Source: a virus. Taken from it: 64,000 nt of DNA. The DNA lies in IMG/VR virus record IMGVR_UViG_3300021963_000027, positions 120,182-184,181 of that record, one strand, 5' to 3'. Below are positions 3,895 to 13,312 of the stretch, in pieces. The notes under the pieces are model-generated. The model saw nothing but the letters and a program-made list of their open reading frames with translations. It ran no database searches and was not told where the DNA came from. How positions within the stretch are numbered: position 1 is the stretch's first letter; every line of letters starts with the position of its first letter. The position numbers and the translations under genes are program-made.

Positions 3895-3922
3895 TTGACT
3901 TTTGCATTTCGTGGTTTATCAT
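3895..3922 (+). promoter_or_regulatory. sigma70-like early promoter for DNA polymerase
   Basis: TTGACT 3895-3900, 16-nt spacer, TATCAT 3917-3922, then 6 nt to ATG 3929. Start-site geometry predicts a leaderless transcript. Confidence 0.65.
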
Positions 3923-3928
3923 TTTTTT

Positions 3929-4321
3929 ATGTATAGGAATTGTATTTACAACAACCGTGAGCGTAAGATTTTCTTATGGACATGGGATGAAAACGGAGAG
4001 CGTGTAAAAGAAGAACACGACTTCAAACCATATATTCTTTTAGAGGATAAAGGTGGTAAAGAGAAATCCATCTATGGGACTCCTCTCAAAAAGAAAGAAT
4101 TTGCTTCTTCGTATGACAGAAATAATTTCGTAAAAGATAGTAATATCAAGCGAATCTACGAAAACCTTCCCCCATATCAACAATTTTTGATTGATAATTA
4201 TTGGTCAGTTTGTGAGGATGACAATTTCTCCCAATATCCTTTGAAGGTTGCTTATCTAGACATCGAGTGTCCATGTTCTAATTATACAAGTGATCATGAA
4301 GTTAAAATACGTAAAAAATAG
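3929..4321 (+). CDS. 43A: DNA polymerase gp43, N-terminal fragment (gp43A)
   Basis: A 130-residue fragment. It opens with MYRNCIYNN and FLWTWDENG, typical of the N-terminal domain of T4-like family B polymerases, and reaches the exonuclease motif I (VAYLDIE, about residues 110-116). After that come CPCSNYTSDHEVKIRKK and a TAG stop at 4319-4321. The rest of the polymerase is at 5195-7483 in the same frame, beyond an HNH gene. I start it at ATG 3929, 6 nt after a sigma70-like -10 box, not at the upstream TTG. The two pieces may assemble as a split enzyme; RNA splicing is an alternative. Confidence 0.8.
   Translation: MYRNCIYNNRERKIFLWTWDENGERVKEEHDFKPYILLEDKGGKEKSIYGTPLKKKEFASSYDRNNFVKDSNIKRIYENLPPYQQFLIDNYWSVCEDDNFSQYPLKVAYLDIECPCSNYTSDHEVKIRKK
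4256..4273 (+). repeat. copy 1 of an LDIECP-coding direct repeat
   Basis: Encodes LDIECP, the polymerase exonuclease motif I. The second copy is at 4325-4342 in the same frame and differs only at synonymous positions. Confidence 0.7.
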
Positions 4322-4324
4322 AAT

Positions 4325-4342
4325 TTAGATATCGAATGTCCT
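4325..4342 (+). repeat. copy 2 of an LDIECP-coding direct repeat
   Basis: Lies between the stop of the polymerase fragment and the HNH gene. It encodes the same six residues, then AAA and a stop. It overlaps the heptamer of the HNH gene. It looks like a footprint of the endonuclease insertion. Confidence 0.65.
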
Positions 4343-4347
4343 AAATA
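4341..4347 (+). promoter_or_regulatory. late promoter (CTAAATA) for HNH gene 4353
   Basis: CTAAATA, 5 nt, ATG 4353. Confidence 0.6.
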
Positions 4348-4352
4348 GTAAT

Positions 4353-5225
4353 ATGGACTATCAATATCAATACGATAATTTAATCAAAACATATAAAAAT
4401 CGCGAATCAGAAGTAATTAAAGATTATTATGAGACACATCATATAACTCCTATCTGTAAGGGTGGGAATAATGATATTACTAATTTAGTGAAATTATCTG
4501 CTAAAGCACATTATGTCGCACACCATTTATTATGTATGATATATCCCAACGACTACCAGTTAGCATGTGCGTTCAACGGTATGTGCGCTAAAAATACAAA
4601 AAATAGTAAAAGGGAATATTCTGCAAGAATGTACCAAACAGCGAGAAAACATTTTTCTAAAAATCACCCGTGTAAACGACCTGAAATTAAACAGAAATCT
4701 GCTGAAACTCGTAACAAAAACTATGAGATAAATAAGAAAAAAAGATCAGAAAAGACGATTATTAGCTTAATCAATAAATATAATGAATCGGGTATTAATC
4801 ATGATGGGGGATATTTGAGGTGTGAAAATTGTAATAATAAAATACCTCATGATCATAAAAGATTTTGTGGTAAGCTGTGTCACGATATTTTTCAAACTAA
4901 AAACTTTCATAGAAGTGATATCCAACACCAAAAGATGGTTGAAAACATTAATAAATATTTCACCAATCTACCAGAAGATAAATTGAAAAAACATCTTGAA
5001 AATTCTATTCACTCTGATAAAGTTGATCATGTTAAACGAGGTTTAGAAATTTCAAAAGCTAAAAAAGGTAAATCGACAAATCAAAATGAAATTATGGGTA
5101 AGAGATTTGCCGTAATGAGTGATTCAGAATTCGACAAACATTTAGAAACATTATCACCTTGGGTACATACTAGATTTAAAAAATTGAGAGAAAAATGGAA
5201 AAACATATTACAGTCGGAGAGTTGA
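4353..5225 (+). CDS. HNH homing endonuclease inserted in the polymerase gene
   Basis: A 290-residue protein. The HNH core is near the N-terminus: ETHHITPICKGGNNDITNLV then AHYVAHHLL (about residues 26-57). A Cys4-type zinc finger follows near 155-180 (CENCNNKIPHDHKRFCGKLC). The C-terminal half is basic and probably binds DNA. It separates the two polymerase fragments, and its 3' end overlaps the second fragment by 31 nt. It has its own late-type heptamer. The insertion is compact, with about 30 nt before it and none after, leaving no room for a separate group I intron core outside the ORF. Confidence 0.85.
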   Translation: MDYQYQYDNLIKTYKNRESEVIKDYYETHHITPICKGGNNDITNLVKLSAKAHYVAHHLLCMIYPNDYQLACAFNGMCAKNTKNSKREYSARMYQTARKHFSKNHPCKRPEIKQKSAETRNKNYEINKKKRSEKTIISLINKYNESGINHDGGYLRCENCNNKIPHDHKRFCGKLCHDIFQTKNFHRSDIQHQKMVENINKYFTNLPEDKLKKHLENSIHSDKVDHVKRGLEISKAKKGKSTNQNEIMGKRFAVMSDSEFDKHLETLSPWVHTRFKKLREKWKNILQSES

Positions 5226-7483
5226 GGTCATATATTGGCGAATATGAGGTTTGGGATGAAGAACGTGGTAGATGGGTTGATATCACTGATTCGTGTTACT
5301 TGAAAAAAGGTGGTTTTCCAGAACCAGAAACAGCAGAAGCAGTGATAAATCTGATCACTGTGTTCGATTCATTTTCTAAAATGTATCATGTCTTCGGTCT
5401 GAAGAATTACCACACAACCAGAGATGATGTTCGATATTATTTTTGTAAATCAGAAGAAGATTTGCTCAAATCATTTATCAAGTATTTCAGAAAAGAGGGA
5501 TTTGATGTGATTAGTGGATGGAACATAGCAGGATTCGATATCCCATACTTGATCAACAGAATCACATTTGAATTGGGAGAAGAATGGGCGAAGAAATTGT
5601 CACCAATTGAAAGGATTTACGAAAAGACAAATCCAAATGGTAAATTTGGAATGCCTACCAAGGAGTATGTGATCGAAGGAATTTCTATTTTGGATTATTA
5701 TGTGATGTATATGAAATTCAGCTTAGAGAAGCAAGAATCATACAAGTTGGATAATATCGGAGAAGTTGAATTAGGTATCAATAAAATTCAGCATGAAGGT
5801 AATCTATGGGAATTGGCTAAAAAAGATTGGTATACCTACACTGATTACAACATTCGCGATGTGGAAATTTGTGTTAAATTAGACGAGAAAAAGGGATACA
5901 TCAATCTTCTTCGATTCCTCGCATACACGGGACTATGTGATTTGGAAAATGCTATCAAAACAGTCCCACCAATGAACGGTGCTATCGCTATTCGTGCGCG
6001 TATGCGCGGAGAGTATATCCCCACGTTTATTCGTCCTGTGACCGATTTCAAAGCACCTGGAGGTTATGTGGCAGAACCAAGAGTAGGGTTCGCTGAGAAT
6101 ATCGTGTCATTTGATGCCAACTCTCTGTATCCATCAGTCATGATTTCGCTCAATCTCTCTCCTGAGACTAAAATCGGTAGAGTTGAAAAGGATGGTGATA
6201 AAGTGAAAATTCACCATGTGTCAGGAAGGCTTTTTGATATGACTAAAGAAAACTTTAAGAAGTTCATGGATGAAGAAAAGGCAGCTTTGACTAAAGCTGG
6301 ATTTCTATTTTCTCAGAAGAAACGTGGTCTTGTTCCTGAGTTCTTGGATAACTTGTATTCCAAACGTAAGGAGATGAAGAACAAGATGTTGGAGTCTCGT
6401 AAGAAAGGAGATAAAGAAGGGGAACAGAAATTTGATAGTATTCAATACGCTTATAAAATCCACCTTAACTCTCTCTATGGTTACATGCTCAACAAATATG
6501 CTCCCCTTGGTGATGAGGATATTGGAACATCTGTGACATTGACAGGTCAAGCAGTTATTAAGAAAAGTAATGATTTGTTCATGGAATACCTATCACAGTA
6601 TTTCGATAATAAAGAAGAAATCGAGAAATCTCTGATATACAATGATACTGATAGCTTCTACACTTCTTTGAAGATATTCGAAAAGATTGGATATGTCTTA
6701 AAAGATGGGGATAAAGTTTCTGATAAATTTTATGGTTTGTGTCAAGATGTTGAAGACTTCGTAAATGACGGAATCACAAAGTGGGCTAAACAGAATTTGA
6801 AAAGTATTGACCCAAGATTCGTGTTTAAGAGAGAAAGCATCTGCGATAGTGGTATTTTCATTGGTAAAAAATATTACGCTCTTCATAAATTGGATGAGGA
6901 GGGTGTCGTGATGAATAAATTCAAATATATCGGAGTCGATGTAGTGAAAACCACGATGCCTAAGAAAGTGAAACCATATGTCAAGAAAGTCATTGAACAC
7001 ATGATCATGACTCAATCCTTAAAAGAAACCAACGATTTATTCAACGAAGCATATGAAGAATTTAAGAAATTACCCATCACAGATATTGCCAAGATTTCTG
7101 GTATGAATAATTACTCGGAATATTCAGCAAGATGTAATGGTATGAATACTGTAAAGGGGATGCCGAGTCACTTGAAAGCTGCTTATTATCACGATTTGAT
7201 CGTTGAACAGAATGGATGGACATCCAAATATGATAAATTCAAATCAGGGGATAAAGTGAAAATGGTATATATCAAGAAACCAAACAAATATAATTTGGAG
7301 ATGATTGGATTCAAAGGAGAATGGCAGACTGAATTTGATGATATCTTCACAGTTGATTATGAGAAAATGTTTGGTAAGGTATTCTACGCTGCAATTGAGA
7401 GATTCTACGAAGCAGTCGGATGGAAACTTAGAAAACCATCAGAGAATCTCACGGTGGAATTGGAAGATTTGTTTGGAGAGTAA
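5195..7483 (+). CDS. 43B: DNA polymerase gp43, C-terminal fragment (gp43B)
   Basis: A 762-residue fragment with all remaining family B motifs: Exo II GWNIAGFDIPYLINRI (about residue 107), Exo III YTDYNIRDVE (about 214), motif A SFDANSLYPS (about 305), motif B KIHLNSLYG (about 421) and motif C YNDTDSFY (about 481). It ends VELEDLFGE, like the clamp-binding tail of T4 gp43. The stretch before GFPEPETAEA (HITVGELRSYIGEYEVWD and onward) is not seen in T4 gp43 at this place; with the tail of fragment A it is either a lineage-specific insertion or a remnant of an inserted element. The ATG lies inside the end of the HNH gene. Confidence 0.88.
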   Translation: MEKHITVGELRSYIGEYEVWDEERGRWVDITDSCYLKKGGFPEPETAEAVINLITVFDSFSKMYHVFGLKNYHTTRDDVRYYFCKSEEDLLKSFIKYFRKEGFDVISGWNIAGFDIPYLINRITFELGEEWAKKLSPIERIYEKTNPNGKFGMPTKEYVIEGISILDYYVMYMKFSLEKQESYKLDNIGEVELGINKIQHEGNLWELAKKDWYTYTDYNIRDVEICVKLDEKKGYINLLRFLAYTGLCDLENAIKTVPPMNGAIAIRARMRGEYIPTFIRPVTDFKAPGGYVAEPRVGFAENIVSFDANSLYPSVMISLNLSPETKIGRVEKDGDKVKIHHVSGRLFDMTKENFKKFMDEEKAALTKAGFLFSQKKRGLVPEFLDNLYSKRKEMKNKMLESRKKGDKEGEQKFDSIQYAYKIHLNSLYGYMLNKYAPLGDEDIGTSVTLTGQAVIKKSNDLFMEYLSQYFDNKEEIEKSLIYNDTDSFYTSLKIFEKIGYVLKDGDKVSDKFYGLCQDVEDFVNDGITKWAKQNLKSIDPRFVFKRESICDSGIFIGKKYYALHKLDEEGVVMNKFKYIGVDVVKTTMPKKVKPYVKKVIEHMIMTQSLKETNDLFNEAYEEFKKLPITDIAKISGMNNYSEYSARCNGMNTVKGMPSHLKAAYYHDLIVEQNGWTSKYDKFKSGDKVKMVYIKKPNKYNLEMIGFKGEWQTEFDDIFTVDYEKMFGKVFYAAIERFYEAVGWKLRKPSENLTVELEDLFGE

Positions 7484-9104: not shown

Positions 9105-10223
9105 ATGGAAAAAATAGATAAAGATATTTTAGCGTCTTTGAACGCTTTGGATGATGTAGTGCCATACTCAGCATATCTGAGTGATTCAACTCTTTCCAGT
9201 GTAAATGACTGGATTGATACGGGGAGTATGGTTCTCAATGCTCTGATTTCTGGTTCGTTGTATGGTGGTATTCCAAATGGACGTATCACACAATTAGCAG
9301 GACCATCAGGTGCATTTAAAACGGGACTTGTAATGCAAATTCTGGCAAATGCTCAAAAGAAAGGCTTGATCCCTGTCATTTTTGACACGGAAGGTGCAAT
9401 TGATCCTGAGTCTGCTGCTAAATTTGGTTTGGATATTACCAAAGTCAAATATGTCGGATGTGAATCAGTGGAGCAAACACGAAATGCGATCTACAAATTC
9501 CTGAAGAGTGTTCGAGAGAAGAAACAATTCGGTAAATTTATTATCGCTATTGATTCTCTTGCGAACTTGAACTCAGAAATGGAACTGACTCGTATGGATA
9601 AGGATTCCATGTCTGCTGATATGGGAACATTTGCAAAATCTGTTAAGAGTCTGTTGAAGACATGCACCAACATGTCAACTCTCACCAAGACTCCTATTCT
9701 GATTACTAACCATGTCTATGACGATCCGAGTGCAATGTATCCATCTCTTGAGAAGAATATGCCAGGTGGTAAAGCAGCAGTGTATCTACCCTCTGTCACT
9801 ATTCAACTTGCTAGAAAATTGGTAAAAGATGCTGATAATAAGCAAGTTAGTGATAAATTGGCTGCATCGCAGAAGAATTATTCAGGTGTTGTTATCCGTG
9901 CTTTGACAGTTAAGAATCGCTTTATCAAGCAATACCTTGAAGGTGAGTTCTATCTGTCCTTTAGCAAGGGGTTGGATAAGTATTACGGCTTGCTTGATAT
10001 CATGAAAGGTATGGGAGTAGTCGATAATTCAGGTTCTTCCTATACCGATTGGACAGGAGACAAGCTTGGATACTATAAAGTATGGAGTAAAGATATTGGT
10101 CTATGGGAAAATAAATTGCTTCCCGAACTTGAGAAACGAATCAAAGAGCATTGGGCTTATGGCTCATCTCCTGATGACGATAATCTGATCGAATTGGAAG
10201 AAGATAACGAGATTGATGGATAA
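9105..10223 (+). CDS. uvsX: UvsX RecA-like recombinase
   Basis: A 372-residue protein, close to T4 UvsX in length. Walker A is GPSGAFKT (about residues 66-73) and Walker B is FIIAIDSLANL (about 145-155). The region around residues 185-205 carries ILITNHVYDDPSAMYPSLE and NMPGGKAAVYLPS, the L2/ssDNA-binding side in RecA-type enzymes. The acidic tail (ELEEDNEIDG) is also typical. It performs strand exchange in recombination-dependent replication and repair. A hairpin follows it. Confidence 0.9.
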   Translation: MEKIDKDILASLNALDDVVPYSAYLSDSTLSSVNDWIDTGSMVLNALISGSLYGGIPNGRITQLAGPSGAFKTGLVMQILANAQKKGLIPVIFDTEGAIDPESAAKFGLDITKVKYVGCESVEQTRNAIYKFLKSVREKKQFGKFIIAIDSLANLNSEMELTRMDKDSMSADMGTFAKSVKSLLKTCTNMSTLTKTPILITNHVYDDPSAMYPSLEKNMPGGKAAVYLPSVTIQLARKLVKDADNKQVSDKLAASQKNYSGVVIRALTVKNRFIKQYLEGEFYLSFSKGLDKYYGLLDIMKGMGVVDNSGSSYTDWTGDKLGYYKVWSKDIGLWENKLLPELEKRIKEHWAYGSSPDDDNLIELEEDNEIDG

Positions 10224-10288: not shown

Positions 10289-10930
10289 TCAATCACTATT
10301 AAGATTATCTTTCGGATAAGGCATTGGTTTATGCTTTAGTTCCCTTATTATCTTTTTACGATCTTTTTTATGTAAAATATAAATATATCTATGTTTTTTC
10401 TTAATTTTAACCCGTTCATAGTTAGGGTCAATTTTGAGAAGTTCTTCAGTTTTAATTGTTTTATATACAACACAAACACTTCTTGGGTTTGTAAGTTTTC
10501 CATGTATTTTGTGTAGATATCCATTTCCAGTCGCGATTTTATTACCTTGATACAACCAATTTGTCGCTTGGTAGATAATGCCTAAATGATTATATGTTGC
10601 GTCAGAATAACTGATTAAAACTTTAATATCAGTATTTTTTCTCAACCAATCAAAAGTTTTACCTATAAAATAGCTTTCACTATTTTTTGGTGCTTCGTCT
10701 ACGAGCCATAATCTTTTTAATTCTAAAACATCTTTATTCTCTAAATTGGGTGTGATGGATTTGACAGTTTGCCTCCCAACAGGGAAACCATACACTGCAA
10801 CACCTATTAAATTTTCCCCGTCGAATAATCCCAACGTGTATCTAGAAGGTGTCCATGCGTGTGAATAATGATTTTCTTTTATTAGCTTTTTAGCTAATTC
10901 TTTATCTATCAAATCTATCGTGTAATCCAT
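10289..10930 (-). CDS. Mom-like DNA adenine modification protein (GNAT fold)
   Basis: A 213-residue protein. It shows ENHYSHAWTPSRYTLGLF (about 19-36), LIGVAVYGFPVGR, LELKRLWLVDEAPKNSESYF (about 69-88) and VLISYSDATYNHLGIIYQAT with NWLYQG (about 104-129). This order matches Mom-type proteins of phage Mu and relatives, which modify adenine in phage DNA and block restriction. The basic C-terminus is compatible with DNA binding. A variant late heptamer ATAAATC lies 5 nt upstream, so it would act late, on DNA about to be packaged. The family call rests on motif order only. Confidence 0.65.
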   Translation of the reverse strand: MDYTIDLIDKELAKKLIKENHYSHAWTPSRYTLGLFDGENLIGVAVYGFPVGRQTVKSITPNLENKDVLELKRLWLVDEAPKNSESYFIGKTFDWLRKNTDIKVLISYSDATYNHLGIIYQATNWLYQGNKIATGNGYLHKIHGKLTNPRSVCVVYKTIKTEELLKIDPNYERVKIKKKHRYIYILHKKDRKKIIRELKHKPMPYPKDNLNSD

Positions 10931-10935
10931 AATTC

Positions 10936-10942
10936 GATTTAT
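10936..10942 (-). promoter_or_regulatory. variant late promoter (ATAAATC) for 10930
   Basis: Reverse-strand ATAAATC, 5 nt before the ATG ending at 10930. It overlaps the end of the upstream gene. Confidence 0.45.
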
Positions 10943-12573
10943 TGCTCATTTAGCCATAACCAATGAGCATAATTTTTAGGCTTTTTAAACCCTCGATCAA
11001 CGAATTTACCTGTATTATCTGAGAATCCGTCTTTATAGACTTGTTCTGTCATGTAACTCATAACATTTTCCTCATCTTCGGGATTATTTTTTTTGAGTTT
11101 TTTTAGATATTTGGACACAGCATTAATTTTTTCGTAATCTGGATCATCGACATCCATCATTTCTCTTAATTTTTCTTCAACTTCTGGTGCTGACAATCCA
11201 GCAACTTCATTTTCAATATTAATCTTCGGTTTCTTTACACCTTTTTCCTTTAATTTTTTTTCAGCTTCCCATTTCTTAGCTTGTTTTTCGTATTCCCCTT
11301 GTCTTATATTTTTAATGTCTTCTCTAGATTGAGCTTGATCCGCTTTTTCTGCATCTCTTGAGCTTTTAGAAACGATAGTTTGTTGTAAATTGGATGCGCC
11401 ATTTCTCCATGCTTTTAAAATTTCTTTTTCTTCTGGAGTAATATTCCCTTGTTCGATCATATGGTTTAATAAATCATCATCCAATGAATCATAAATGGTT
11501 TGATATCTATCTGCTTTTAATCCTGCATCATCATCTGTCGATTCAAATTCGTAATTTTGATTGTAATTTTTTAAAACAATATCAGAAACCTTACCCATAA
11601 CTCTCGGAACAATTTTTTCAATTTGTTCCTTTGGAATAGGTTGCCCATTTTGGATGGAAATGTTGATACTGTTAAGCATGGATTCAAATACGGATTTATC
11701 AACATCCGTTAATCTGTTTTGTTCATCGGAAAGAAAATCCATTCGACTCATATTTTTGACCAAATCTCTTCTATATTCCACCAAATCTTCAATAGTGTTT
11801 TTGAATATTTTCAAATCAAACAAATCATCCTTTTTAAGTTGAGTGTCTTGTCTCTCCAATGATCTCTCCGAATGATAAATGGACATGAGAAGACCTTTTG
11901 GTATGTTCTTACTTTTTCGGAGTCTTTGTATAATACCCTTTGCTTTATTTTGAATTTCGTAGAAATTACCTAAATCCATGCCAAGTAGTTCCTCTTTTCG
12001 GTTTATCATTCCTGATGCAAAATTGGAACTACCACCTTTAAAAAGGTGTTTGTTGAAATATGCGTCAATATTAGCATCATCCATTACTTTGCTTGTAAAT
12101 TTTTTGGATAATGCTTTTTCTTCATATGCTCTCACCATCAGAGATAACATATAATCTTGTTGTTTAGGAGTGGTGTCTGCCCATTTTCCAGCAAGTTCGG
12201 CATATCCTGGTGTGAATTCTCTCATTCTTTTGTCACCTATTTTAAGCCTTTCAATTCTTTCGTCTGGAGAAATATCTCTGATTGCTAAATTGCGAACATT
12301 AGCCTCAAATCCCTTACTTTTATTAATTCCAATTGCAGCAAGTTCTTCTTTTGAGAGAAAATCGAATAACATACGACTGATATATTCTATTCGTTTATCT
12401 GCACGAGTTTTTGGGATAGGTGAGGCTTTTGGATGCTTTGCCATTTTGTCTTGTAATTCCAAATAGAAGTTCCTGAATTCTGGAAAATTGGTATTCCAGA
12501 ATTCACTTTTTAGACCCATTTCATTCAACATTTGAACTTTCTCCACTAAATAATCGAATCCGTAATTTCTCAT
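10939..12573 (-). CDS. large predicted packaged/virion protein
   Basis: A 544-residue helical protein, rich in Lys, Glu and Asp, with an extended charged stretch near residues 390-460. No enzyme motif is seen. The true start is MRNYGFDYLVEKVQMLNE, because a CTAAATA heptamer sits 5 nt before it; an upstream in-frame ATG at 12633 would place the promoter inside the gene. LNE followed by MG fits the gp21-like cut site. It follows the metalloprotease gene by 4 nt, and both carry the tag. Likely a head-interior protein delivered with the DNA. Confidence 0.6.
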   Translation of the reverse strand: MRNYGFDYLVEKVQMLNEMGLKSEFWNTNFPEFRNFYLELQDKMAKHPKASPIPKTRADKRIEYISRMLFDFLSKEELAAIGINKSKGFEANVRNLAIRDISPDERIERLKIGDKRMREFTPGYAELAGKWADTTPKQQDYMLSLMVRAYEEKALSKKFTSKVMDDANIDAYFNKHLFKGGSSNFASGMINRKEELLGMDLGNFYEIQNKAKGIIQRLRKSKNIPKGLLMSIYHSERSLERQDTQLKKDDLFDLKIFKNTIEDLVEYRRDLVKNMSRMDFLSDEQNRLTDVDKSVFESMLNSINISIQNGQPIPKEQIEKIVPRVMGKVSDIVLKNYNQNYEFESTDDDAGLKADRYQTIYDSLDDDLLNHMIEQGNITPEEKEILKAWRNGASNLQQTIVSKSSRDAEKADQAQSREDIKNIRQGEYEKQAKKWEAEKKLKEKGVKKPKINIENEVAGLSAPEVEEKLREMMDVDDPDYEKINAVSKYLKKLKKNNPEDEENVMSYMTEQVYKDGFSDNTGKFVDRGFKKPKNYAHWLWLNEQ

Positions 12574-12577
12574 ACTC

Positions 12578-13300
12578 TTATTTAGTATTGGTTTCTTTTT
12601 TTTGTCTACTATTAGGCTCCCATCTAGGCTCATTCGTATCCATCAACTCAAAAATTTTTTTCCTGTATACTGGATTTAAATCTAAAAAACGTTCAACCAT
12701 CACTGCCCACATTTCATAGTAATCTTTCAAACCATAAGAACGAGGAAACTCGATCAATTTTGCTAAATCATCTCTCAACGCTTTATCACTTTTTAATTTT
12801 GGATCATTATTTGTTAATTGACGATAAAATTTTTTAATTGCTGTGAAAAAAGATTCTCCTTTATTAAACATCCAAATATGACCCCACTCATGAATAATTG
12901 TTTTTACCAATTGATCATAAATTTGTTTATTTTTTAATTGTAAACCAAGTAAAAATTTTGTATCGAGGGTGATGTATTTTAAGTCTTTGTAATTCTTATC
13001 TTTTCCATATTTTTTCTTTCGAGGATCACCAAATGCTTCTCCTGCTTCATCTTTATCAGATGATTTCTTAAACACAGCATTCACATGCATTGACTGAAAT
13101 CCAATTTTGTTGATATGTGTTTTTGCTTCTTTAAATGCTCTTGCAACTTCATTCCACAATTCCATATTCTTAACATTTTGCACTTTGGAATCTAAAAAAA
13201 TTGAAAACATTGGAACATCCAGTTTATGGATAACTTCGGAAGATTTTCGGAATCTACCCTCAGTCAAAACTTTCTCAAATAACTTATCAAATTCGTTCAT
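12578..13300 (-). CDS. HEWGH zinc metalloprotease with capsid-targeting tag
   Basis: A 240-residue protein. It starts MNEFDKLFEKVLTE then GRF, a tag helix with an LTE cut site. The catalytic motif is IIHEWGHIW (HEWGH about residues 137-141). A downstream DYYEMWAVMVERF segment (about 203-215) could supply the third zinc ligand, as in gluzincins. The region between is basic. The start is fixed by the TTAAATA heptamer 5 nt upstream, and the longer frame to 13357 is not used. A protease carried in the head and injected would be unusual; cleavage of other head proteins is the alternative role. Confidence 0.7.
   Translation of the reverse strand: MNEFDKLFEKVLTEGRFRKSSEVIHKLDVPMFSIFLDSKVQNVKNMELWNEVARAFKEAKTHINKIGFQSMHVNAVFKKSSDKDEAGEAFGDPRKKKYGKDKNYKDLKYITLDTKFLLGLQLKNKQIYDQLVKTIIHEWGHIWMFNKGESFFTAIKKFYRQLTNNDPKLKSDKALRDDLAKLIEFPRSYGLKDYYEMWAVMVERFLDLNPVYRKKIFELMDTNEPRWEPNSRQKKETNTK
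12579..12585 (-). promoter_or_regulatory. late promoter (CTAAATA) for 12573
   Basis: Reverse-strand CTAAATA, 5 nt before the ATG ending at 12573. It lies within the last codons of the metalloprotease gene. Confidence 0.65.
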
Positions 13301-13305
13301 CTTAA

Positions 13306-13312
13306 TATTTAA
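13306..13312 (-). promoter_or_regulatory. late promoter (TTAAATA) for 13300
   Basis: Reverse-strand TTAAATA, 5 nt before the ATG ending at 13300. Confidence 0.65.

Follow-up and report, generated by a model that had tools for sequence, protein, structure and literature searches.

The minus-strand gene at positions 12578-13300 of the window, which forms the final 64 kb of a virus record of 184,181 bp from an uncultured phage (G000), encodes a predicted zinc protease of 240 residues that begins with a capsid-targeting-like tag. The reading favoured here, with a rough probability of 0.58, is that of a T4-style internal head protease whose tag would be cut by gp21 and which would be injected to cleave host proteins. 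In the course of events that we infer, from packaging, cleavage and zinc binding to activity, ejection and target, the protease would be made late in infection and its N-terminal helix would bind the scaffold core, by which it would be carried into the prohead. There gp21 would cut after LTE14 and free residues 15-240, and the mature enzyme would stay with the packaged DNA and leave the head together with it when the next host is infected, most likely then cleaving a single host protein or a small number of them, as targets in defence or takeover.

The phage is T4-like: PHROG 138 matched its gp23 (E = 3e-80), which lies with a gp21-type Peptidase_S77 prohead protease gene (82335-83000, E = 6e-28) in a head cluster at 79-83 kb of the record. 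Among the matches listed, this gp23 was at most about 34% identical to those of isolate phages, which indicates that the lineage is deep. The DNA polymerase is apparently carried in two ORFs (window 3902-4321 and 5195-7483, within 3902-7483), separated by a 290-residue ORF (4353-5225) that has its own late box and is perhaps a homing endonuclease.

The protease ORF runs from the ATG at 13300 to the stop codon at 12578-12580, and this ATG is fixed by a TAAATA box located at -11 (13306-13311, minus strand). The proposal that the gene has its own late promoter was corroborated by the distribution of this box in the phage genome, where TAAATA was found exactly at -11 from the ATG of 44 starts, against an average of 0.93 at offsets further upstream; in the long relatives G001 and G002, 47 and 40 starts had the box at -11. 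Only one of the 44 starts presented GGAG, GAGG or AGGA within 18 bases, and the recurrence of the box at -11 almost never with a Shine-Dalgarno-like sequence suggests that the late mRNAs of this phage are leaderless or nearly so. Within the protease family, four members (L012, L013, L056 and L063) had no TAAATA at -11 ± 1 base, and L051 had it at -13. Early genes of the phage carried AAAACTAG, mostly at -22 (51 starts) or -25 (16).

Purifying selection acts on the protease gene (dN/dS 0.185 in a pairwise comparison with the related locus L011), and its tag region showed no nonsynonymous and two synonymous changes in that comparison. It is located between two plus-strand genes, at 9105 and 14016, which we take by eye from their translations to be UvsX/RecA-like and gp41-like, respectively, and it forms a minus-strand island of three genes with a 544-residue gene (10939-12573) and a Mom homologue (10289-10930). 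The latter, a Mom-like DNA modification protein (PF25680, Pfam E = 1.4e-55), is apparently missing at the corresponding place in L011.

The original prediction had placed a tag and an LTE cut site at the beginning of the protein, and both were found there. The tag MNEFDKLFEKVLTE (residues 1-14; 13259-13300, minus strand) ends in LTE (residues 12-14; 13259-13267), a putative gp21 cleavage site with the cut after E14. A short, mostly F-rich tag ending in [LIV]xE was present in 16/16 aligned relatives; the tag sequence itself varies, with a column identity of 0.31 over residues 1-11 and 0.88 at the nearly invariant E14. No more than about three residues separate the tag from a conserved and usually FRK-like segment, which reads FRKS or FRD in most relatives and FSQS or FGKR in some. 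For example, tags of relatives read, with a slash at the putative cut, MLSFKEYILTE/GGKFRKS, MTFHEYYTLNE/GRRFRDS, MKFEELYKLVTIEE/ARFRKS and MISFKEYFLIRE/AKFSQS, and L043, whose alignment row begins one codon upstream, conforms if it is started at a GTG with TAAATA at -11. When T4 controls were translated, IPI began MKTFKEFTSTTTPVSTITE/A and IPIII began MKTYQEFIAE/A, the cut marks being our own reading, and family tags such as MLSFKEYILTE/G resemble both that of IPI (MKTFKEF...ITE/A) and that of IPIII. In T4, Alt is cleaved by gp21 at ITE-6 and LTE-619 (PMC5694885), and nearly any protein is brought into the head by the capsid-targeting sequence, of about 10 residues, which is afterwards removed; proteins bearing it are packaged and the tag is detached by the protease (PMC7697877).

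A first, strict tag pattern missed part of the tags visible by eye, and looser patterns were then used. With the loose pattern, tag-like N-termini were enriched in TAAATA genes of five related records, at 51/151 against 102/1309 interior windows (Fisher p = 6e-17, an indicative value, as the patterns were chosen after examples had been viewed and related genes were counted more than once). The interior windows give a chance rate of about 8%, and this rate is what speaks for a late cytoplasmic protein, involved with host takeover or lysis timing, whose N-terminus is an ordinary helix that resembles a tag. Such a protein is quite improbable here, given that a hydrophobic-x-Glu closes the tag beside the conserved segment in 16/16 sequences even as the tag itself varies, that tags are enriched in late genes, and that neighbouring genes join a similar tag to unrelated bodies. 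Loading into the head, as originally proposed, is instead supported by the tag and cut site in every aligned relative, the late box, the presence of gp21, the linkage to head genes and to tagged genes, and the similarity to T4 tags; packaging is very likely and is the best-supported step of the account.

The 544-residue gene downstream of the protease (10939-12573, minus strand) is co-oriented with it and is a second tagged late gene, beginning with MRNYGFDYLVEKVQMLNE/MG. Its TAAATA, at -11, occupies 12579-12584 and overlaps the protease stop codon. A mechanically assigned start giving 564 residues was rejected in favour of 12573, which has this box and the tag and is most likely the true start. 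The homologue in G002 retains a tag ending in LLNE. Many other late proteins of the phage begin with a similar tag on mutually unrelated bodies, and homologues of tagged late proteins in G002-G004 keep a tag. Such N-termini were observed, for example, in a tRNA nucleotidyltransferase (G000:66176-67696, L005:9176-10693; PHROG 2244, E = 1.4e-61), which begins with the capsid-targeting-like MKKFHKLYHQLMRE and whose homologues in G002 and G003, the latter in two ORFs, are also tagged. Similarly, a PF05618 protein (putative ATP-dependent zinc protease, retropepsin-like; G000:109110-109568, L007:14113-14568) has the tag MTSFKQFFVE, and its G002 homologue begins MRSFKQYFVE. Another tagged late protein (G000:58393-59247, L005:1396-2247) contains AHRIGHSF and a later EFYHEAFA, which looks like a zincin site with the catalytic Glu replaced by Arg. 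A tentative extension, which we hold to be somewhat short of an even chance, is that the lineage loads perhaps 20-30 tagged proteins, frees them by means of gp21 and injects them all in an opening attack by proteolysis and RNA modification; the cargo would include the zinc protease, the retropepsin-like protease, the tRNA nucleotidyltransferase, ADP-ribosyltransferase-like domains and many unknowns.

The complete zincin motif and the possible third ligand attributed to the protein both stood up to comparison with its relatives. The predicted zinc-binding and catalytic motif HEWGH (residues 137-141; 12878-12892, minus strand) was conserved as HEW[GA]H in 16/16 aligned relatives, with H137, E138 and H141 invariant, and W139, W143 and M144 were among the other invariant residues. 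The predicted third zinc ligand, E196 (12713-12715, minus strand), lies in YGLKDYYEMWA and was likewise invariant in 16/16; 59 residues separate it from HEWGH in the window protein, and in relatives a long insert extends this distance to as many as 340. An AlphaFold model built with 16 sequences reached a pLDDT of 73 and a pTM of 0.70, an earlier run with four sequences (pLDDT 52) having been too poor. In this moderate model, strands follow a helix at residues 46-66, and the HEWGH helix (125-164) and the E196 helix (194-206) come after them, an order like that of alpha/beta zincins. The leading matches of a fold search of the PDB were M1 (zinc) aminopeptidases and leukotriene A4 hydrolase, with weak E-values of 0.08-0.2, and viral fold matches included a protein of Achromobacter phage Motura, the best (8.9e-4), and a putative peptidase of phage PaBG.

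A sequence profile of the window protein gave no useful match in the PDB, and Pfam and PHROG profiles gave only sub-threshold matches to it, so that no family was reached. Profiles of Peptidase_M90, SprT-like and YgjP-like proteins produced sub-threshold matches in 5, 10 and 9 of the 16 members, respectively, and PADLOC returned a single weak zincin-like match (PDC-M31B, E = 0.0006). A duplicate of gp21 was also considered and rejected, as Peptidase_S77 is absent from the Pfam matches of the window protein and the phage has a separate S77 gene. By motif and conservation the window protein is classed as a zincin, with fold support no more than suggestive, and the HExxH with a later Glu predicts a zinc endopeptidase of the gluzincin type, which is in all likelihood an active protease. 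The occurrence of HRIGH, without the catalytic Glu, in another tagged protein of the phage raises the question of whether the window protein could be a packaged or injected non-protease, either an inactive zincin fold or an inhibitor-like internal protein. The invariance of E138 and of all three putative ligands in 16/16 sequences makes this highly improbable.

A first search had recovered five loci, one of them identical across the entire protein, and an alignment search extended the family to about 25 IMG/VR loci with at least 14 distinct proteins; the conservation counts come from an alignment of 16 sequences, and L019, which has a short zincin-like stretch only, was left out. No match was found when the proteins of the window, L012 and L018 were searched by tblastn against INPHARED (50,697 phage records), and a scan of genome contigs revealed no family members. 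Peptidase_S77 was found in G000 and in the records of 12/23 relatives; the remaining records, in which no S77 was detected, are mostly fragments, but include G007 (138 kb) and G023 (70 kb). The protease gene is located among other tagged late genes in L012, L013, L018, L048 and L062, and G001 holds two diverged copies. In L063, a 620-residue chain (L063:4356-6215) comprises a tag, an ART-PolyVal-like domain (E = 3.5e-6; 28.3 bits, below the curated cut-off of 31.2), an internal LTE and a HEWAH protease domain, with the junction VFLTE/NSKFRKK just ahead of the latter. With this LTE placed directly ahead of the conserved segment, cleavage by gp21 would presumably yield two cargo enzymes from the chain, in a locus whose record showed no S77 gene.

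The late box and the tag are equally expected for a protease that acts only in the prohead, that is, an accessory maturation enzyme packaged beside gp21 that trims scaffold or cargo and is dispensable after ejection; a part in head maturation had also been raised in the original prediction. One clade has the gene within the head-assembly cluster, and it lies shortly upstream of gp21 in L044, L047 and L052, with gp22- and gp23-like genes beyond it in the two loci that reach that far (L044 and L052), and zincins have been proposed to act in virion maturation in group 1 jumbo phages (PMC7824862). A role confined to the prohead is nevertheless unlikely, as gp21 is present and intact and the gene also occupies unrelated sites, between uvsX- and gp41-like genes here and among cargo genes in L012 and L018. 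The two diverged copies in G001 and the fusion to an ADP-ribosyltransferase-like domain, a host-modifying activity, point the same way, and the lack of INPHARED matches to three members implies that T4-type heads manage without this protease. Action in the new host is probably the correct reading, in view of the patchy occurrence, varied location, two G001 copies, fusion and resident gp21. Injection followed by cleavage of host proteins would be the likeliest function by analogy with T4 Alt and internal proteins, polyvalent proteins and the virion RNA polymerase of phage N4.

In the literature found on the T4 internal proteins, no protease was described among them. If the favoured reading is true, a metalloprotease delivered by way of its tag would give the phage an effector able to destroy host proteins ahead of all phage gene expression, and the tag rule could be used to read injected effectors from genomes of uncultured phages. 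No Pfam or PHROG model for the family concerned was reached by the window protein, and isolate phage records yielded no match.

Compared with known systems, the window protein shares with T4 IPI, IPII, IPIII and Alt an N-terminal tag of 10-20 residues and a hydrophobic-x-Glu site, and late expression and a gp21 (S77) gene accompany the T4 proteins as they do in this phage. The payload differs, being a predicted zinc protease instead of a restriction-enzyme inhibitor (T4 IPI) or an ADP-ribosyltransferase (Alt), and apart from the tag pattern no sequence match to the T4 internal proteins was seen. Alt is a head protein that T4 injects, and among the polyvalent proteins of phages and conjugative elements (ART-PolyVal, zincin MPTase) a zincin is predicted to enter the host with the DNA (PMC5512222). 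L063 pairs an ART-PolyVal-like domain with the protease, whereas the window protein has a putatively removable tag and a single domain, where polyvalent proteins have two or more effector domains; moreover, self-processing by the zincin was proposed for the latter (PMC5512222), and the chain here seems to be cut by gp21. Domain C1 of the N4 virion RNA polymerase is an HExxH domain within a virion-ejected protein, but it is part of a 3,500-residue polymerase from another phage type (PMC12633501). Peptidase_M90, SprT-like and YgjP-like zincins have HExxH as well, but are cellular families whose curated cut-offs the window protein did not reach. In jumbo phages, zincins have been proposed either for the cutting of host proteins or for maturation (PMC7824862), and it is these, together with the polyvalent proteins and the HExxH domain that N4 ejects as part of its RNA polymerase, that are the nearest published ideas.
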